This document shows positions 3,558 to 22,180 of a stretch of DNA of 27,689 nucleotides, in pieces. The stretch covers positions 1 through 27,689 of IMG/VR virus record IMGVR_UViG_3300046010_007721. The stretch is one strand, 5' to 3'. Source of the stretch: a virus. The position numbers and the translations under genes were made by a program. Under the pieces are notes generated by a model, which was given only the letters and a program-made list of their open reading frames with translations, did not search any database and had not been told where the DNA came from. Every line of letters begins with the position of its first letter. The stretch's first letter is position 1.

Positions 3558-3746
3558 TTAGTCAAGTAGTTTAAATAAATGTGGATAATCGGGGCAAAAA
3601 GTAACCCACCTGTGCGGATTAGTTTCATCTTCATGACCCCAACAATCACTACATAATGCGTGTACTTTAGGGTACAAAATATCCCCTTTAAACAAGTGCG
3701 TAAAATGTGGCATTGTGTTTATTACCTCGTATCTGTTATTGTTCAT
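3558..3746 (-). CDS. Small Cys/His-containing protein
   Basis: A 62-residue protein starting at the ATG complementary to 3744-3746. That ATG overlaps the end of the preceding gene, whereas the longer in-frame version from 3800 would run back through that gene. It contains CSDC, then His, Glu and Asp residues, then HRWVTFC, a possible zinc-binding cluster (Cys-x2-Cys ... His ... Cys). The N-terminus has a KGDIL turn. It is part of the minus-strand operon. Function unknown. Confidence 0.6.
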   Translation of the reverse strand: MNNNRYEVINTMPHFTHLFKGDILYPKVHALCSDCWGHEDETNPHRWVTFCPDYPHLFKLLD

Positions 3747-5195: not shown

Positions 5196-5843
5196 ATGGC
5201 AACAGAAACACAACAATTACAGTTAGTCAATCCGCAAGACCTTTCATTTGTAGATGAAAATATGCTATCAGCTAAACAGCTACAAAGTTTACTAAAGCAC
5301 ACCCCACCGCAATACGTACATACTAGACCTGCAAAGGGTGGTGGCACATGGGAATATGTGTCGGGTGGGTATGTGCGTAAAGTACTTAACCTTATGTTTG
5401 GTTGGAACTGGTCATTTGAGATAGTAGATGAAAAAATACTGCATGGTGAAGTAGTGGTAAAGGGTAAGCTAACTTGTACCAGCAACGGCACATCTATAGT
5501 AAAAATGCAGTTTGGGAATAAGGATATTATTTACAAAAAGTTGCAGCAAGGCGAAACGGAGAGAGTGCCGTTATCAATCGGTAACGACCTAAAAGCAGCA
5601 GCTACAGACGCATTAAAAAAGTGTGCAGCCGAAATAGGGATAGCAGCCGATATATACAATAAACAAGACTTTAAGGCGGTAATGGTTGATACATCGGTGA
5701 CTGACATTGAAGACCTTAAAGAACTGTTTGAAATGAAGCGTGAGGCTATGACGGCAGAACAAATAAAGAACGCTGAAAGGATAATCAACAACACCGAAAC
5801 AAAATCATACAAAAAACTTTTTGACCAACTAAAAGCACTATAA
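5196..5843 (+). CDS. Rad52/Rad22-like single-strand annealing protein
   Basis: A 215-residue protein. The core TWEYVSGGYVRKVLN (51-65) with FGWNWSFEI (68-76), and then GNDLKAAATDALKKCA (129-144) with AEIGIAADIY, are the conserved blocks of phage Rad52-like annealing proteins. These form rings that coat single strands and pair complementary ones. The C-terminal third is helical and charged. It is first in the operon, and its stop overlaps the start of an exonuclease (TAATG), the usual partner that makes 3' overhangs. Together they would give RecA-independent recombination in the host cytoplasm. Confidence 0.85.
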   Translation: MATETQQLQLVNPQDLSFVDENMLSAKQLQSLLKHTPPQYVHTRPAKGGGTWEYVSGGYVRKVLNLMFGWNWSFEIVDEKILHGEVVVKGKLTCTSNGTSIVKMQFGNKDIIYKKLQQGETERVPLSIGNDLKAAATDALKKCAAEIGIAADIYNKQDFKAVMVDTSVTDIEDLKELFEMKREAMTAEQIKNAERIINNTETKSYKKLFDQLKAL

Positions 5844-6571
5844 TGAGTATCATAACTAACACACAAAGATTAGGTAATTTCACTAGCAGCAATATTTACA
5901 AACTGTTATCTAAAGCAAAAAACGGTAAAGACTTTGGCGCACCTGCATTGACTTATATTGAGGAGTGCAATATTGAGCGTGAAATGGGTATTTATTTAGG
6001 CAATGAAACAAGTGCAAGACCTTTAGACTGGGGTAAACACTGTGAGCAGTTCGCATTTGACCATATCAGCACCGAATACATTATCACATCAGATGTTACC
6101 ACCGCACACCCTACATTACCATTTTGGGTAGGTAGCGCAGACGGATATAAAGAAGATACGGTATTTGACCTTAAATGCCCTATGACTAGAAAATCATTTT
6201 TCGGGCTGGTAGCTGGTGACAATATCCAAAGTATAATAGACGGTTTTACCCGCAACAACTTTAAATATAAGGCACATACAGACGCAGAAAAGTACTATTG
6301 GCAGTTAGTATCCAACGCTATTATTTTGGGCAAAAAATACGCTGAATTGATAGTGTATATGCCATATCAAAGCGAACTGCTAACTATTAAAGAGGCTGCA
6401 AAAGACTTTTATAATTGGATACATTACAGCGCAGATATTGAACTGCCATATTTGCCCGATGGTGGCAAGTTCCAAAACATAAATATTATACGTTTTGAAG
6501 TTCCGCAAAGCGACATTGACCTACTAACAGAATGTGTAACCGAAGCATCAAAATACCTCATTACACCATGA
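5843..6571 (+). CDS. YqaJ / lambda-type exonuclease (PD-(D/E)XK)
   Basis: A 242-residue protein. WGKHCE (63-68) supplies the first acidic residue Glu68. GSADGY (97-102) and FDLK (108-111) give Asp100 and the D-x-K pair Asp109/Lys111, and WQLVSNA (153-159) supplies the conserved Gln. This set fits YqaJ/RecB-like nucleases that digest one strand of duplex DNA from the ends. The gene is translationally coupled to the annealing protein upstream (TAATG) and to the DnaA-like gene downstream (ATGA). Length is normal for the family. Confidence 0.85.
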   Translation: MSIITNTQRLGNFTSSNIYKLLSKAKNGKDFGAPALTYIEECNIEREMGIYLGNETSARPLDWGKHCEQFAFDHISTEYIITSDVTTAHPTLPFWVGSADGYKEDTVFDLKCPMTRKSFFGLVAGDNIQSIIDGFTRNNFKYKAHTDAEKYYWQLVSNAIILGKKYAELIVYMPYQSELLTIKEAAKDFYNWIHYSADIELPYLPDGGKFQNINIIRFEVPQSDIDLLTECVTEASKYLITP

Positions 6572-6918
6572 TAATAACAGCAAAATACATCGAGGAACAA
6601 TTTTGGTTGGAGCGAAAGTATAAAGGAGTGCTAACAGTTGAGCGAATAGAACAAGTAGTTTGCAGCCATTTTAAGGTAACGATTGAGCAGGTAAAGAGTA
6701 GTAGCAGACGGTACAATATAACCGAGTGTAGGCACTTAATTTGGTACTATTTGCGCACTACTGGCATGACATTGCAAGCTATCACAACAATGTACAATAA
6801 AAAAGACCATACAAGCGTAATCCATGCACTAAATAAGGTTGAAAGGTTACTGCATAATGATGATGAAATGAAGTACAATGTATCAGCAATTAACACACAA
6901 TTAAACTTACAGAAATGA
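6568..6918 (+). CDS. Standalone DnaA domain IV-like DNA-binding protein
   Basis: A 116-residue protein. Residues 24-92 follow the DnaA C-terminal domain: VERIEQVVCSHFKV, then the basic SSSRRYNI, the RHLIWYYLR helix and the signature KKDHTSVIHALNKV (78-91) that reads the DnaA box. The AAA+ ATPase part is absent. I chose ATG 6568, overlapping the previous stop as ATGA. Bacterial DnaA uses this domain to bind TTATNCACA boxes. A lone copy could mark a phage origin or compete with host DnaA. TTATCAA boxes in the repeat block at 15043-15445 are possible targets, which is inference. Confidence 0.85.
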   Translation: MIITAKYIEEQFWLERKYKGVLTVERIEQVVCSHFKVTIEQVKSSSRRYNITECRHLIWYYLRTTGMTLQAITTMYNKKDHTSVIHALNKVERLLHNDDEMKYNVSAINTQLNLQK

Positions 6919-7824: not shown

Positions 7825-9999
7825 ATGGATTACAAAGAGTTTTTGAAGACAAAAGAAAAACGCCTAATAGAAACAGGTTTTGAACATTCGGGCGGTTGGA
7901 GTTGGTTATATCCATTTCAGGAGTATTGCGTTAAAATAGCACTCAAAAAAGGTAGGTTTGCACTGTTTGAGGATTGCGGACTAGGCAAGACAAGACAGCA
8001 AATAACATGGGCTAATGAGGTAGTAAAGCACACCAATAAACCAGTGTTAATACTTGCACCTTTGGCAGTAGTAGGGCAAACAATACAGGAAGGTAACGCA
8101 ATAGGAATAGATGTAACCGAATACAGTAGTAACGCAATAAATGCAACTGTTTACATTTCCAATTACGAACAACTTGATAATATTGATTGTTCTATATTTT
8201 CAGGTGTGGTACTAGATGAAAGTAGTATATTGAAAAACTATTCAGGTGCAATAAAAGAAAAGATAATAGAACTATTTGCTAACACACCATACAAGTTAGC
8301 TTGCACCGCCACACCTTCACCAAATGATGAACTAGAAATAGGCAACCATGCCGAATTTTTACAAGTGATGACTTCGCAAGATATGCGGGCTATGTTTTTT
8401 ACTACCGACAAAAACATTATAAACGGTGAAAAGTACAGGCTAAAAAAACACGCTATTAAACAGTTTTACAGATGGATTAGTACGTGGGCTATAATGATAA
8501 GTAAACCGTCTGATATTGGTTTTGATGATTTAGGCTACAACCTGCCACAGCTAATATACCATGATAAAAAAGTAATAACCGATAAGCGTGATAACGGTAG
8601 TTTATTTAACTCCGTTTCAGTATCAGCTACAGAGTTTAACGGTGAATTAAGGCTAACTAAGGTTGAGCGAATGGATGAAGTAGCAGCCATAGTAAACAAC
8701 AGTAGCGAACAGTTTATAATTTGGATTAAACACAATGAAGAGGGCGAACTACTAAAGAAATTAATACCCGATGCAATAGAGGTAAAAGGTTCTGATACCA
8801 ACGACTACAAAAAGAAACACCTACTAGGTTTTGCTAACAACGCATTTAGAGTATTAGTAACTAAAAGTAAGATTGCACAGTTTGGGCTTAACTATCAGAA
8901 TTGCCATAATCAAATATTTGCGTCACTAGATTTTAGCTTTGAAAGCCTATACCAATCAATCAGAAGGTCATACCGTTTCGGACAAAAAGAAAATGTAAAC
9001 ATTTATTTAATCACAACAGACACAATGGAAAACGTAATTAAAAGTATCGAAGAGAAAGAAGCTAAATTCATTCAGATGCAAGATGAAATGAGAGAGGCGA
9101 TAATGAGTAACGTTGTACACTCTACAGTTAAGTATGTACCAAAAGTAACCGCAACAGACAACTACAAACTCATAATGGGTGATTGTGTAGAAGAGGTACG
9201 AAAGATGCCGAGCAACTCAATAGATTATTCTTTTTTTAGTCCGCCATTTGGGGCTATGTATGTATTTTCTAATGATGAAAGGGATATGAGCAACGTAAAA
9301 AATAACAAAGAGTTTTTAACGCACTTTAGTTATTTAGTTGAGGAGTTATTCAGGGTTATTAAAAATGGTAGACTTGTAACTATTCACATGATGCAATCAA
9401 CTACTTTATTAGGGCGTGACGGCTACTATTCTATTGTTGATTTTAGGGGCGATTTGATACGCATGTTTCAGGATAAAGGATTTTATTTCCATGCCGAAAA
9501 CATGATAAGGAAAGACCCAAAGACAGCAGCTATACGCACTAAAAACAGACAGTTGATGCATGGCACAACTAAAAAAGATAGTTCAATAGTTCGCCCAGGT
9601 CTTGCTGATTACATGCTTACCTTTAGAAAGTCGGGAGAGAATGAAAAACCTATAAGAAATGAAATACCATTTGACTTATGGTGCAAAATAGCCGAACCTG
9701 TATGGATAGAGATTGAGGAAGGTGATACACTAGAGTTTAGGAGCGCAAAAGACCACAAAGATGAAAGACACTTAACACCTACGCAACTAAAGCCTATTGA
9801 ATGGCTATACCTTATGTACACAAATAAACATGATACCGTACTTAGCCCTTTTAGTGGCATAGGCAGTGAGGGTGTAAAGGCTTTAATGATGGATAGAAAA
9901 TACATAGGAGTTGAGTTAAAAAAGTCATACTATGATATTTCAGTAAAAAACCTTAACAACGTTATTACATCAAAATCACAACTTTCACTACAACTATAA
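7825..9999 (+). CDS. SF2 (SNF2-like) helicase fused to amino DNA methyltransferase
   Basis: A 724-residue two-domain protein. The N-terminal helicase has Walker A GLGKT (52-56), DESS as Walker B (131-134), TATP (161-164) and a SNF2-type motif VI (IRRSYRFGQ, 379-387). The C-terminal methyltransferase has motif IV SPPF (472-475) before motif I SPFSGIGSEG (674-683), the beta-class order, with RKYIGVELK after it. SPPF/SPPY is typical of N4-cytosine enzymes, though N6-adenine is possible. Such a protein could move along DNA and methylate it. No endonuclease domain or restriction gene is adjacent, so protection of phage DNA is the likelier job. It has a terminator just downstream. Confidence 0.85.
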   Translation: MDYKEFLKTKEKRLIETGFEHSGGWSWLYPFQEYCVKIALKKGRFALFEDCGLGKTRQQITWANEVVKHTNKPVLILAPLAVVGQTIQEGNAIGIDVTEYSSNAINATVYISNYEQLDNIDCSIFSGVVLDESSILKNYSGAIKEKIIELFANTPYKLACTATPSPNDELEIGNHAEFLQVMTSQDMRAMFFTTDKNIINGEKYRLKKHAIKQFYRWISTWAIMISKPSDIGFDDLGYNLPQLIYHDKKVITDKRDNGSLFNSVSVSATEFNGELRLTKVERMDEVAAIVNNSSEQFIIWIKHNEEGELLKKLIPDAIEVKGSDTNDYKKKHLLGFANNAFRVLVTKSKIAQFGLNYQNCHNQIFASLDFSFESLYQSIRRSYRFGQKENVNIYLITTDTMENVIKSIEEKEAKFIQMQDEMREAIMSNVVHSTVKYVPKVTATDNYKLIMGDCVEEVRKMPSNSIDYSFFSPPFGAMYVFSNDERDMSNVKNNKEFLTHFSYLVEELFRVIKNGRLVTIHMMQSTTLLGRDGYYSIVDFRGDLIRMFQDKGFYFHAENMIRKDPKTAAIRTKNRQLMHGTTKKDSSIVRPGLADYMLTFRKSGENEKPIRNEIPFDLWCKIAEPVWIEIEEGDTLEFRSAKDHKDERHLTPTQLKPIEWLYLMYTNKHDTVLSPFSGIGSEGVKALMMDRKYIGVELKKSYYDISVKNLNNVITSKSQLSLQL

Positions 10000-12531: not shown

Positions 12532-15042
12532 ATGCAAGAACTATCTGCCGTATTCGGGCAAGTACAGGAATTATTATCTGCTGGTATATCCATTGTACCA
12601 GTACGTGACAAAGCAGAAACAAAACAAGATGGGACTATCATACCTGCTAAAGTAGCCTATTCAGGATGGAAACAATACCAATCAACCATTATCAGCAAAG
12701 AGGCGTTATGGTATGAAATGGATAAACATAATACCACCGCTATTGCTATGGTATGCGGTAGCGTATCGGGCAACTTAGAAATAATAGACATAGACTGTAA
12801 GCACTGGAACGGTATAGATGGTAGACTTTTCAGCGATATACGCCAAATATACCCCGAACTATGGTACAGGTTACGCATACACAAAACACCGTCAGGAGGC
12901 TATCATATACTATACAGGATTGCAGACGGTAAAGCGCAAGGAAATAAAAAATTAGCATGGAAAGCAGATGTTAAAGAGTGTGGCATTGAAACAAGGGGAG
13001 AAGGTGGTTATGCACTCGCACCCCCCTCAATGGGATACTCAATACATCAGGGTGCTAACATACCACTAATCACACAATCAGAGCGTGATAGCTTGATTAA
13101 TTTATGCATCAGCTACAACCAACGCATCAAAGCAGAAGTAAGCTACAAGCCGACTAAAAAACAGACCGATTACTACGATGAAAACCCATTTGACCATTTT
13201 AACGGTAGCATAGCAGCAGAGGACATATTAACAGCTAATGGTTATAAAATATTTAATGACCACGATATGTACAGAAGATGGACACGACCTAACAGAAATG
13301 AAGGGGGCGTATCTGTAACATTTCGTAAGGATTACCGATTATACTATTTTTTCACTACATCAACAGAATTTGAGGCGGGCAAATGGTTAACACCAGCAGC
13401 AGTACTATGTACTTTACAATTCGGTGGGGACTACAAAAAACTATACCGTCACTTAGTAGATAGTGGATATGGTAAAATAAAACATGAACACGAACAAAGG
13501 ATAATTAAGACCGCTACAGCCTATAATACCCCTACACCTGCTAACATATCAGATGAGGCTAAGCAGTTTGTACAGGACATACTAATAAAGGCTACAGAAA
13601 CGCACCCACATGGCATATTTTGGGCAATAAACGACAAGGGCGGCACATACATCAGCCGAGAAAAATTGTACACCGTATCGCATGGTTTAGGGTATAGGCT
13701 ACATAAAGAAGATGTAACCAAAATACAAGGATATAAGATATGTCGTACCGATGCACGTACATACTTTGATGAACTTAAAGCATATATACATATCGAAGAT
13801 GCAGACGAATACGAAACTGTTTTTAATGCCTTAGATGAATTTATACAGAAGTCGGGTAAGCACATAATTGCCAGCCTACCCATATTAGATACATCAGTCA
13901 TACTGACCCCCACTAAACACCTATCGTATAAATTCTATAATAATTGCTATGCGACTATTGATAAAGATGGTGTAGAAGTGCTACCCTACTCAGCTCTACC
14001 CACCAATAAATTGATATGGGAAAACAAAATACAACTACGTGACCTAACAGTAACAACAGATAACAGCCATAAGCAATCACTATATTACAAATATCTTGAC
14101 CTATCAGTTAGCGTTACACCGCATGTATTGCAATGTATTGGCTATTTATGCCATGAATTTAAAGACGAATCAGACGCATATATAGTAGTATTAGTTGAGC
14201 AATGCCCCGACCCTAAATCGGGTGGTGGTAGCGGTAAAAACATATTTTCAAATATGCTTAAATACGCTACAAGTGTTAAGAACCTACCCGGTAGCCAAGT
14301 TGTTTTAGATAAGGATTTTTTACAGTCATGGGACTACGAAAAGGTGCTATCTATATCAGATGTGCCGAAAAAGTTTGACTTTCTATTCCTTAAAGAATTG
14401 TCATCAGGTAACGGTATCAACAAAAAGCTATTCAAAAATATAAGTACTGTTGATGTGGGCGATATGCCAAAGTTATTAGTAAGCACAAATTACAGTTATG
14501 AGGTGTCAGACGGTGGGTTAAGGCGTAGAATTATCCCGATAGAATTTACTGACTTTTTTACTAAAGCAGGGGGCGTAAATACTCACTTTGGAAAGATGTT
14601 TCCTACCGATTGGACTACCGAAGATTGGCAAGCCTATGATAACATTATCCTTGCATCTATTCAACAATGGCTTAAGGTCATGAGGCTTACAGCCCCCCAA
14701 TTAACCGAAGGTGGATGGCAAAAACAATTTGAACAGGAGTATGGATTATTAACTTTGCAGTTCATAGAGGAAAATATTACAGAATGGAAACTTATAAAAA
14801 AAGTGCAGGTTAAAGCGTTCAATAACACCTACGATACCTTTTATTCTGATAATGGGGGAAACAAATTGTATAAGTTATCATCTATTCGGCTTAATTCAGC
14901 ACTAGAAAGCTACTGTCAAAAACACGAAATACACTTTGAAAAACAAGTAGTAATGAAGGAAAATGGCATACTTGACAGATATAAGTTATTTAATGGAGAG
15001 CAAAAAAATGATAATTCAGCACCCGATTTAGTACCTTTTTAG
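12532..15042 (+). CDS. Primase-polymerase / SF3 helicase (replicative primase-helicase)
   Basis: An 836-residue protein. The N-terminal Prim-Pol (archaeo-eukaryotic primase type) shows DID (86-88) as metal ligands, SGGYH (121-125) and ETRGEGGYALAPPS (153-166). The C-terminal part is a D5/SF3-type ATPase: Walker A GGGSGKN (564-570), SISDVPKKFDF near 606 (Walker B region) and LRRRIIPIEF near 664-673, with the arginine cluster. Such fusions unwind DNA and lay primers at phage and plasmid origins. The gene stands between the candidate small RNA and the iteron-like repeat block, which fits an initiator acting next door. Confidence 0.85.
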   Translation: MQELSAVFGQVQELLSAGISIVPVRDKAETKQDGTIIPAKVAYSGWKQYQSTIISKEALWYEMDKHNTTAIAMVCGSVSGNLEIIDIDCKHWNGIDGRLFSDIRQIYPELWYRLRIHKTPSGGYHILYRIADGKAQGNKKLAWKADVKECGIETRGEGGYALAPPSMGYSIHQGANIPLITQSERDSLINLCISYNQRIKAEVSYKPTKKQTDYYDENPFDHFNGSIAAEDILTANGYKIFNDHDMYRRWTRPNRNEGGVSVTFRKDYRLYYFFTTSTEFEAGKWLTPAAVLCTLQFGGDYKKLYRHLVDSGYGKIKHEHEQRIIKTATAYNTPTPANISDEAKQFVQDILIKATETHPHGIFWAINDKGGTYISREKLYTVSHGLGYRLHKEDVTKIQGYKICRTDARTYFDELKAYIHIEDADEYETVFNALDEFIQKSGKHIIASLPILDTSVILTPTKHLSYKFYNNCYATIDKDGVEVLPYSALPTNKLIWENKIQLRDLTVTTDNSHKQSLYYKYLDLSVSVTPHVLQCIGYLCHEFKDESDAYIVVLVEQCPDPKSGGGSGKNIFSNMLKYATSVKNLPGSQVVLDKDFLQSWDYEKVLSISDVPKKFDFLFLKELSSGNGINKKLFKNISTVDVGDMPKLLVSTNYSYEVSDGGLRRRIIPIEFTDFFTKAGGVNTHFGKMFPTDWTTEDWQAYDNIILASIQQWLKVMRLTAPQLTEGGWQKQFEQEYGLLTLQFIEENITEWKLIKKVQVKAFNNTYDTFYSDNGGNKLYKLSSIRLNSALESYCQKHEIHFEKQVVMKENGILDRYKLFNGEQKNDNSAPDLVPF

Positions 15043-15057
15043 CCATTTTAGCCAAAA

Positions 15058-15373
15058 GTTACAAGGAAGTCTGTAACTGTTACAAACTTTTTTTCAAACT
15101 CTGTAACCGATAACTAACTGATTATCAACTACTTATAACTAAAGTTACAGAGTTACAGACTTTTTTCCTATTAACGCATGAAGAGAAAAAAAAAGAAGAG
15201 TAGTAAAAGTAAAAAAGTAAGAGGCTGCAACTTTTTTTATTTATATAGAATGGGGTTAAAAATGGGTAAAAGTTTGTAACTCGGCATTTTGGGCGAAAAA
15301 AGCACTGATTATCAATGAGTTAGCGGTTACAAACTTTGAAAAAAACGAAAATGCAAGTCTGTAACTTTGTAAC
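15058..15373. repeat. Iteron-like repeat block, candidate replication origin
   Basis: The 403-base gap 15043-15445 has no gene. It holds ten copies of GTTACA or its complement TGTAAC, at 15058, 15072, 15079, 15102, 15144, 15152, 15275, 15326, 15360 and 15368, several in the longer form GTTACARACTT. Two pairs are tandem with an 8-nt period, and one pair (15068-15088) is inverted. CTGATTATCAA occurs twice (15118-15128 and 15305-15315). Between the clusters lie a purine-rich tract (15178-15225) and an AT-rich stretch (15231-15249). Repeats plus an easily melted tract beside a primase-helicase gene are the usual make-up of an origin. This is inference from pattern. Confidence 0.6.
15067..15095 (+). 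terminator. Intrinsic terminator formed by inverted repeat pair
   Basis: AAGT-C-TGTAA pairs with TTACA-A-ACTT around a 3-nt loop, with one C/A mismatch, and seven T residues follow the 3' arm. It lies 25 nt after the primase-helicase stop and uses one of the inverted GTTACA pairs, so the element may serve both termination and origin structure. Confidence 0.5.
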
Positions 15374-15445
15374 TTTCTAATATGTAGCAGTCCCCAACAT
15401 TTAAATAACAAAACACAATTTAAACTAAAATAACTTACAGGCGCA

Positions 15446-15823
15446 ATGACAAAACAACAACTACTTGAACAAGATGCAATAGGTTGGGCATCAGAGGACA
15501 AACTACAAGCCGCATGTTATCAGTGGGCGCATAACACCTATCCTGAAATAAGAGGTACATTGTTTAGCGTTCCGAATGGTGGGTACAGAAACAAAATAGA
15601 GGTTATGAAAATGAAAGCGACAGGGCTTACATCAGGTGTACCTGATATGCTTTGTGTATATGGCGGCAAATTAACGGCAATAGAGCTTAAAAATGGGGCT
15701 AGTGGTGTACTTAGTAGGGAACAGAAAGAACTACACCTTATTTGGGCTAAAAACGGGCATTACGTGCATGTTTGCAGAACGGCAAGTGATTGGATTAATG
15801 TAATTGAAAACTTAACCCTATGA
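15446..15823 (+). CDS. VRR-NUC domain nuclease
   Basis: A 125-residue single-domain protein. Glu18 (SEDKLQ), SGVPDM (63-68) with Asp67, IELK (79-82) with the Glu80-x-Lys82 pair, and the Gln at 93 are the VRR-NUC active-site set of the PD-(D/E)XK fold. Stand-alone phage VRR-NUC enzymes cut branched DNA such as Holliday junctions in test-tube studies of relatives. Here it could resolve replication and recombination intermediates. It overlaps the following HNH-like gene by 4 nt and sits just after the candidate origin. Confidence 0.85.
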   Translation: MTKQQLLEQDAIGWASEDKLQAACYQWAHNTYPEIRGTLFSVPNGGYRNKIEVMKMKATGLTSGVPDMLCVYGGKLTAIELKNGASGVLSREQKELHLIWAKNGHYVHVCRTASDWINVIENLTL

Positions 15824-20333: not shown

Positions 20334-20750
20334 ATGGGCAAAATGAATGATGAGATATTCACCCAAATATGTGAAATAACCTCAAATACTTCTAAAGGTA
20401 TTCAAGTTATAATGCAAGATTATGATATAAGTGTTGGCACTTTTTGGAACTTTAAAGAGAGTTCGCCACAAAGAATTGAACAATACGCACGTGCGAAGAA
20501 TATGCAGTTACTTATACTTGCTGGTGAGATACTTACAATATCAGACGATAAAAGCGGTGATGTGTTAGACGGTGATTTGGGTAAGACTGGTAATAGTGCT
20601 GCGGTTAACCGTGCTAAGTTGCAGACTGATAGCCGTAAATGGTTGTTATCTAAACTTGCACCGAAAGAGTACGGAGATAAGATTGAGGTAAACGCAACCA
20701 CAACTACTACACAAGTATTTAAAATCGGTGATACCGAAATAGCCATGTAA
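20334..20750 (+). CDS. terS: Terminase small subunit
   Basis: A 138-residue protein. The N-terminal HTH-like part (MNDEIFTQICEITSNTSKG ... YDISVGTFWNF) would read the packaging site. RIEQYARAKNMQLLILAGEI, KLQTDSRKWLLSKLAPKEYGDK and the nearby Asp-rich region match phage small terminase proteins. I chose ATG 20334, just after the promoter, because earlier starts run through the divergent promoter region. The stop overlaps the large subunit start (TAATG). It selects genome ends and loads the large subunit during packaging. Confidence 0.85.
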   Translation: MGKMNDEIFTQICEITSNTSKGIQVIMQDYDISVGTFWNFKESSPQRIEQYARAKNMQLLILAGEILTISDDKSGDVLDGDLGKTGNSAAVNRAKLQTDSRKWLLSKLAPKEYGDKIEVNATTTTTQVFKIGDTEIAM

Positions 20751-22180
20751 TGCAGAATAAAGTAGTACTATTTGAGCCGTTCCCAAAGCAACAAAAGTTT
20801 ATTGAATTTGCATTCGATAAGGTCACAAAATATGCGCTGTATGGTGGTGGTATTCGTGGCGGCAAAACGTTCTGCGGGCTTGGTACGTTCATTTTATTGT
20901 GTAAGGTGTACCCATATAGCCGATGGGCGGTAGTCCGCAAATCCTTGCCCGATTTAAAGCGTAATACTATTGTATCATTTAATAAGTTAGTGCCGACTAA
21001 CTTTGTAAGGTCGTACAATCAAGACACACAAACAGTAACATTTAACAACGGTTCGCAGATTATATTCTTTGCTGAGAACTACGATGATGATAAGGAGTTA
21101 AACAGGTGGAGAGGTCTTGAGGTTAACGGCTTTTTATTAGAGGAGGCGAACGAATTACAGGAACTATCATTTTACAAAGCTATTGAGCGTGCAGGGTCAC
21201 ACATACCGCCAGTAGGATGCAAGAAACCAAAACCATTTATAGGACTTACTTGTAACCCATCATGGGGTTGGGTAAAGACAACGTTTTACGATAGGGCTAA
21301 AAATGGTACTTTACCGCCCGACTTTCAGTACATATCAGCATTGATACATGAAAACCCATATATTACAGAGGATAAGGATTATATGGAATCATTGAATAAC
21401 TTACCTCGCTTGCAATATGAGGTGTTTGTATTGGGTAATTGGGATGTAAATATGAATGAACACCCTTGGATTTATGCAATGGATGAGGATGTACACATTA
21501 AGCCAGTTCAAGTGATAGAAACGTTCCCAATATACCTGTCATTTGACTTTAATGCAAACCCGATGAGTTGTACAGTTTGGCAACGTTCGCCTAATGTTGC
21601 TGGCAATGGTGGTTGGTGTAGGTGTATTGATGAGTTCGGTGGACATTTGAAGATAGACGAATTATGCGCCCAAATTAAGACATCTTACCCTAATCACATA
21701 TTTTATGTCACAGGTGATAGAAGCGGTCAAAATGAGGATATAGGGCGTAATCAGACAGCATACCAGATGATACAGTCATTGTTACATTTATCCAACGCTC
21801 AATTACATTTGAATAGTTCAAACCTTGAACACTTTGACAGTAGAATGTTATGTAATGTAATGTTTGGTAAGTATGACATAACCATTGACCCATGTTGTAA
21901 GAATTTAATAGCTGATATACGTAAGGCAAAGGTTGACATTAACCATAAATTAGGTAGTCAGCTATTGAAAGATAGAGGCGAAAACAAGATGGATTATTTC
22001 GATAGTATGCGTTATTTCTTTCAGACATACTATAATGAACACGTACGCTCCACTTATCTTAAAGGTATCACAATTAACAATATCGCAGCATTACCACCCG
22101 AAAAACCAATAAAACAAATGAAAATAGTTCACAATCAAGGTAGAGAAGTAGAAGACCATAGTAAACGATTTAGAATTTAA
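20750..22180 (+). CDS. terL: Terminase large subunit
   Basis: A 476-residue protein. Walker A GGIRGGKT (33-40) and Walker B with catalytic Glu, GFLLEE (127-132), form the packaging ATPase. The RNase H-like nuclease has LSFDFNAN (263-270, Asp266), VTGDRSG (320-326, Asp323) and KMDYFDSMR (413-421, Asp415/Asp418). It cuts concatemeric phage DNA and pumps it into the procapsid through the portal. Length and motif order are normal. Translation is coupled to the small subunit. No portal gene follows, which is unusual. Confidence 0.95.
   Translation: MQNKVVLFEPFPKQQKFIEFAFDKVTKYALYGGGIRGGKTFCGLGTFILLCKVYPYSRWAVVRKSLPDLKRNTIVSFNKLVPTNFVRSYNQDTQTVTFNNGSQIIFFAENYDDDKELNRWRGLEVNGFLLEEANELQELSFYKAIERAGSHIPPVGCKKPKPFIGLTCNPSWGWVKTTFYDRAKNGTLPPDFQYISALIHENPYITEDKDYMESLNNLPRLQYEVFVLGNWDVNMNEHPWIYAMDEDVHIKPVQVIETFPIYLSFDFNANPMSCTVWQRSPNVAGNGGWCRCIDEFGGHLKIDELCAQIKTSYPNHIFYVTGDRSGQNEDIGRNQTAYQMIQSLLHLSNAQLHLNSSNLEHFDSRMLCNVMFGKYDITIDPCCKNLIADIRKAKVDINHKLGSQLLKDRGENKMDYFDSMRYFFQTYYNEHVRSTYLKGITINNIAALPPEKPIKQMKIVHNQGREVEDHSKRFRI

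Follow-up and report, generated by a model that had tools for sequence, protein, structure and literature searches.

The origins of PICIs lie immediately 3' of the rep gene, with an AT-rich region placed between two sets of iterons (PMC6092414), and the C-terminal domain of the SaPI Rep recognises such a downstream iteron origin (PMC7581432). In the alpha protein of phage P4, a winged helix binds the origin repeats, and unwinding and priming are provided by the same protein (PMC4234260). The element of phage Sfi21 has been described as an origin whose copies block the replication of invading phages (PMC6356513), and the NrS-1 enzyme recognises TTTGGTTA (PMC8718748), which resembles the GTTAC core of the repeats studied here. 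Satellites and phage Sfi21 have already made known iteron origins located 3' of an initiator helicase. The present locus adds a set of near-identical phages in which nearly all of the repeats have switched in step, and in which the corresponding protein change is limited to the C-terminus of the putative initiator. We found no paper on this array or on the co-variation of iterons and wing, in a library whose incompleteness means that this is not proof of novelty.

The DNA analysed, hereafter the window, is a virus record of 27.7 kb (27,689 nt). A second record, G001, shares 15.3 kb of identical sequence with it and adds a further 19 kb. Relatives were also sought in bacterial genome contigs, where none was confirmed. 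Eight other phage contigs contain relatives of a large gene at 20750-22180, and related records extend up to 46 kb; both observations speak for a full phage over a satellite, all of these records being fragments. At 1081-1145, the window matches a tRNA in Rfam (36.7 bits) at a place where ARAGORN makes no call, possibly a degenerate tRNA or the remnant of an attachment site.

Directly after the primase-helicase gene lies a noncoding block which, judging from its sequence and surroundings, is very probably the origin of DNA replication of this phage. Its features are given below in window coordinates, together with their state in type B, the alternative form of the block carried by close relatives.

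12532..15042, plus strand: primase-helicase gene, 836 aa (PF09250, 4e-10; PHROG 19930 and 28855)
15043..15445: noncoding block of 403 bp, proposed replication origin, between the primase-helicase and VRR-NUC-like genes
15058..15063, plus strand: iteron 1, GTTACA; GGTAACA in type B
15072..15077, minus strand: iteron 2; switched in type B
15079..15084, plus strand: iteron 3; without match in type B, where an extra site occurs nearby
15088..15127: left arm of the 40-nt inverted repeat
15102..15107, minus strand: iteron 4; switched in type B
15119..15127, plus strand: first copy of the near-palindrome TGATTATCA; kept in both types, one base different in L010
15144..15149, plus strand: iteron 5, first member of a tandem pair; switched in type B
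15152..15157, plus strand: iteron 6, second member of this pair; the sole site unchanged in type B
15158..15274: centre devoid of sites, containing the purine and AT-rich tracts; proposed region of melting
15275..15280, minus strand: iteron 7; switched in type B
15306..15314, plus strand: second copy of TGATTATCA; kept in both types
15306..15345: right arm of the 40-nt inverted repeat
15326..15331, plus strand: iteron 8; switched in type B
15360..15365, minus strand: iteron 9, in a tandem pair; region rearranged in type B
15368..15373, minus strand: iteron 10, in the same pair; region rearranged in type B, with GTTACC nearby
15446..15823, plus strand: VRR-NUC-like nuclease gene bounding the block (PF08774, 1.7e-4, slightly short of the curated cut-off; PHROG 824)

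An earlier, sequence-only reading of this DNA had described ten GTTACA/TGTAAC sites in about 316 bp, two tandem pairs at 8-nt spacing, a repeated sequence and a purine tract directly after the primase-helicase gene, and all of these are borne out. The ten sites span 316 bp (15058-15373), the same-strand pairs start at 15144/15152 and 15360/15368, copies of CTGATTATCAA start at 15118 and 15305, and the purine tract covers approximately 15180-15225. The reading frame of the primase-helicase ends at 15042 and the first site stands at 15058, so that the array adjoins the candidate initiator gene. The sites form two groups, 15058-15157 and 15275-15373, largely inverted to each other, separated by a 117-bp centre without sites and joined by the inverted repeat, whose arms are 85% complementary. 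Two iteron sets around a site-free centre, directly 3' of a primase-helicase, make up a layout of the PICI/SaPI type. The block is poorer in GC than the window (31% versus 37%), and within it the AT content of the centre is similar to that of the remainder. Over the whole window GTTACA is not over-represented (36 occurrences for 29 expected); its clustering is exceptional, with 10 sites in 320 bp against a maximum of 5 in 200 second-order Markov simulations. A chance origin of the cluster is thus excluded, and AAAAAA is the sole other hexamer clustering as strongly anywhere in the window.

Clustered short sites in an intergenic region also look like multi-operator arrays, and the block could in principle serve a phage transcription regulator of the flanking genes, all the more as the minus strand has a promoter-like match (15315-15286). 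We consider this very unlikely, given that promoter-like matches in the block are at chance level and no terminator-like site was found there, that the primase-helicase is the constant neighbour across phages, and that the element of the same layout in Sfi21 is a known origin. A search of the block against Rfam matched no RNA family.

The same early reading had suggested that a DnaA domain IV protein of the phage could bind TTATCAA boxes in the block. The proposal of an iteron-type origin is supported by the conservation of the array, by its place downstream of the primase-helicase gene and by the Sfi21 and PICI/SaPI layouts; the DnaA part is not, and we regard a DnaA-type origin as extremely improbable. 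The window does encode a PF08299 protein at 6532-6918 (1.2e-17), and both TTATCAA copies of the block are kept in nearly all relatives. However, the boxes are poor and common: the best match in the block has 2 mismatches to TTATNCACA, a level reached at 125 places in the window, and TTATCAA itself occurs 14 times. A perfect DnaA box exists at 3580, outside the block. Moreover, TGATWATCA is absent from all but 2 of the 53 other blocks, and the DnaA-domain protein, 96-98% identical in phages of both types, does not track the origin type. This protein stands alone, without an AAA+ domain. A check of GC skew, suggested at the same time, gave no reversal at the block, which is weak evidence in a fragment of 27.7 kb. 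The TTATCAA copies of the block belong to TGATTATCA, which occurs twice in the window, both times inside the block; being conserved across types, these two copies may be sites for another factor. TGATWATCA, related to TGATTATCA, is also found in the blocks of loci L086 and L091.

The comparison of close relatives revealed two forms of the block. Type A is carried by the window, G001 and G002, of which the window and G001 are the same virus, leaving two distinct phages; type B is carried by eight viral contigs whose primase is about 97% identical to that of the window. Type A has 10 GTTACA and 0 GGTAACA sites, type B 1 and 9, respectively. The type B block nevertheless aligns base by base with type A across most of its length, and the sequence between the sites, including both copies of TGATTATCA, is largely the same. 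The array is kept in relatives; the literal GTTACA is missing from most of them, owing to the change of almost all sites to GGTAACA. The early reading had named a lack of such conservation as grounds for refutation, a test which, applied to the letters GTTACA, would have misfired.

The change is not limited to the block, and the features concerned in the primase-helicase are the following.

14746..14994, plus strand: winged helix predicted at aa 739-821, the proposed reader of the iterons (AF2 pLDDT 76-89, separate fragment model)
14932..14994, plus strand: predicted wing beta-hairpin, aa 801-821 (AF2 strands 801-810 and 813-821), with type-fixed changes at 807, 808 and 814
14950..15027, plus strand: codons 807-832, the sole region of the primase with fixed type A/B differences
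about 14950..15400: allelic cassette, with a sliding identity of 94-100% within type and 63-86% between types

Along the same sliding comparison, the flanking coding DNA (primase and VRR-NUC) shows no split between the types. Ten amino-acid differences are fixed between A and B in the 836 residues of the primase and all lie at 807-832, that is, in the wing and in the tail after the wing; the recognition helix is identical in A and B. The wing changes themselves are conservative (V807L, M808I and L814V). The VRR-NUC protein downstream does not track the origin type, and no other gene clearly does so among those common to enough genomes, the G002 record being devoid of upstream genes. In G002, the primase DNA is as far from the window as that of type B and yet carries a type A segment, so that recombination seems to transfer this segment. 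This paired change of repeats and protein tail suggests that origin and protein are exchanged as a lock-and-key unit.

A Rad52-like gene, a nuclease-like gene and an SNF2-helicase/N6-N4-methylase fusion occupy 5196-6571 and 7825-9999 of the window. They have no tblastn match in any compared type B genome, although their neighbours are conserved, a pattern of modular replacement.

The primase-helicase comprises an N-terminal Prim-Pol domain, a D5/SF3-type helicase region with a GGGGSGKN motif and a predicted C-terminal winged helix. Searching the PDB with its sequence gave no match. The full-length AF2 model is poor (mean pLDDT 40) and usable for the C-terminal domain only, where helices are predicted at 739-755, 760-773 and 784-797, ahead of the two strands of the wing. 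Aligned with VIA-align, the fragment model of this domain resembles RFX (8zjr, Z 9.0; 1dp7, Z 8.1) among many winged helices, as well as the origin-binding domain of phage P4 (1ka8, Z 7.7, 2.3 A over 75 residues, 15% identity), the latter at a Z below the safe level for a fold match; it is possible that the likeness to P4 and RFX reflects a common fold and nothing else. These matches come from VIA-align alone, Foldseek returning nothing at E <= 0.001 with the same fragment. RFX1 reportedly reads the major groove by its wing and not by its recognition helix (PMC4333399), in agreement with the location of the type A/B differences in the wing. Wing and C-terminal tail are, from the sequence comparisons, the likeliest determinant of specificity.

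The C-terminus of the primase is contiguous with the block and some co-inheritance is expected by linkage alone. The block could thus be an origin read by a different protein, the C-terminal codons hitch-hiking in recombination tracts. The adjacency of these codons, the conservative nature of the wing changes with an unchanged recognition helix, and the upstream genes missing from G002, among which a reader could sit, would all be compatible with such an arrangement. The proposed reader was tested independently in three other families: Listeria PSA-like, staphylococcal VapE and streptococcal Sfi21-like phages.

In the Listeria phages (L363-L423), four iteron types occur within about 300 bp after the stop of the primase, next to near-identical primase backbones: GGTGGATAGTT, GGTGTATaGTT, cAGGGCA.GTT and acAGTGCAaGTT. 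Some of them are one letter apart (AGGGCA/AGTGCA and GGTGGA/GGTGTA). The similarity of the backbone is equal within and between iteron types, with no significant association, whereas over the last 60 columns of the alignment the two comparisons are 0.28 apart (0 of 2000 label permutations). The nearest neighbour is of the same type in a proportion of 1.00 by the C-terminus and 0.40 by the backbone, about 0.31 being expected from the type frequencies. The DNA and gene downstream of the block have no association with iteron type (-0.02), which controls for simple linkage. SSTKFGKEMGLKF, in the recognition-helix region, is nearly constant and the next hairpin is type-specific, with the fixed residues gathered there; helix and wing are assigned here by reading the Listeria sequences against the model of the window's protein. 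In the staphylococcal and Sfi21-like families, the strongest association is also C-terminal, accompanied by some association of the backbone, and their evidence is accordingly weaker than that of Listeria. The permutations ignore phylogeny, and backbone and downstream gene serve as better controls. The iteron type follows the C-terminal winged-helix domain in all three families. The one-sidedness of the association, with a downstream flank that does not follow the type in the window and Listeria families, the gathering of fixed Listeria residues in the wing and the reported binding of such sites by the C-terminal domains of SaPI Rep and Cch2 (PMC7581432) make an association by linkage only unlikely.

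A scan of viral contigs for the tandem motif GTTACANAGTTACANA returned at least 120 loci. Of the 120 scan loci listed, 53 had six or more sites in 400 bp, against 1 of 120 for a control of the same composition, a proportion that overstates the independent cases since the same phage appears repeatedly (L117, L141 and L142, for instance). The largest ORF within 700 bp of the block was usually a primase-helicase (VapE for 13 and DUF5906 for 14 out of 30), compared with DUF5906 for 2 of the 30 controls and no VapE listed; further neighbours were NrS-1-type, Pox_D5 and DUF927 proteins. In most isolated phages that encode such a protein, the gene is followed by a gap of 220-450 bp containing an iteron of the phage's own: AGTAACA in phi105, GGTGGATAGTT in PSA, GTTGCATCA in phiSa2wa_st1, GTCAACA in Pd_22F, GGAACA in StAB and GTAACATCC in Halorubrum virus CGphi46. 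The iteron differs by phage lineage, ruling out GTTACA as a universal motif. The archaeal virus CGphi46 (L286) holds 12 GTAACA and 8 GTTACA sites at 5792-6241, after the primase, and the layout is consequently not limited to bacterial phages. Distant Prim-Pol phages (L470, at 5414-5770, and L471-L477, just after the primase stop) have other iterons directly 3' of the gene, with about 10 copies of GTGGCA or 5-7 of CGGTCAA. No such block follows the gene in Bacteroides phage BC669P2, nor is there an intergenic iteron block after the primase of L011 (from 7427 onward), a 51%-identical relative whose origin may be located elsewhere.

These blocks also bear on the possibility that the sites are not duplex iterons and instead act as single-strand templates recognised by the Prim-Pol domain. 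NrS-1, like the window's protein, has a Prim-Pol fused to a helicase, its recognition site resembles the GTTAC core, and in L102 a GTTACA block is found 14 bp downstream of an NrS-1-like helicase. On the other hand, the NrS-1 genome reportedly holds two copies only of its template site, where the window has an array. Residues 1-806, comprising Prim-Pol and helicase, are without fixed A/B difference, and similar blocks stand beside helicases with unrelated primase domains. Template sites of this kind are, in our opinion, quite unlikely.

Finally, folding of the DNA could matter more than the letters of the iterons. The pRN1 replicon encodes ORF904, which, like the window's protein, unites an AEP primase, an SF3 helicase and a winged helix, with the origin downstream. 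This origin is a 100-nt stem-loop without iterons, and stem-loops were proposed by the pRN1 authors as general for such proteins. The type A and B blocks do fold better than shuffled sequences (z of -3.35 and -4.45), a property which inverted iterons confer by themselves. The window does not fit the pRN1 description of one long stem-loop conserved in shape and free of iterons: iterons are present and the predicted structures of A and B differ. The number of sites and their approximate positions are kept and their letters switch, and a stem-loop origin appears highly improbable.

We consider it likely that the origin is read by the C-terminal winged helix of the primase-helicase, that melting of the centre and priming ensue and that origin and reader constitute one cassette with at least two recombining alleles. 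From the position, conservation and co-variation of the array, and by analogy, a replication function can be inferred, with the following steps. The winged helix would bind the inverted GTTACA arrays, as in P4 alpha and SaPI Rep, and one helicase ring would probably be loaded on each half of the block. The AT- and purine-rich centre would then be melted and the fused Prim-Pol domain would prime synthesis. Specificity would reside in the wing and the C-terminal tail, with AGTTACA for allele A and GGTAACA for allele B recombining between phages. Extending this reading, we lean slightly towards the idea that many families of phage primase-helicases read their origins by an RFX/P4-like wing and that wing and iterons form a recombining specificity cassette.

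If true, near-identical phages would fall into discrete origin types according to a protein-DNA code that can be read, and this would matter for superinfection resistance based on origins and for the compatibility of satellites. The Listeria, staphylococcal and streptococcal patterns, with some iterons one letter apart, offer a data set for the study of changes in initiator specificity. The findings also give a simple rule for locating origins in uncultured phages, namely to inspect the first few hundred bases downstream of the primase-helicase gene.

Among described systems, the PER element of the S. thermophilus phage Sfi21 is similarly noncoding and 3' of a primase, with 8-nt pairs of a GTTAC core and inverted halves. 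Its record annotates 302 bp directly after the primase as 'origin of replication ... phage inhibitory sequence', in which we found nine AGTAAC/GTTACT sites, 8-nt tandem pairs, an AT-rich centre and inverted arms of 55 nt. The outer base of the iteron differs from that of the window, and the neighbouring primase is shorter, without recognisable similarity to the window's primase-helicase. The Sfi21 element has been studied by experiment, whereas the block of the window is known from sequence analysis. P4 alpha is comparable to the window's protein by the predicted C-terminal fold, close to 1ka8, and differs by its primase, which is of the Toprim type. PICI and SaPI elements share with the block an origin placed directly 3' of the initiator-helicase gene and two iteron sets; they are satellites of phages, whereas the window probably belongs to a full phage, and its AEP-type Prim-Pol is fused to the helicase.
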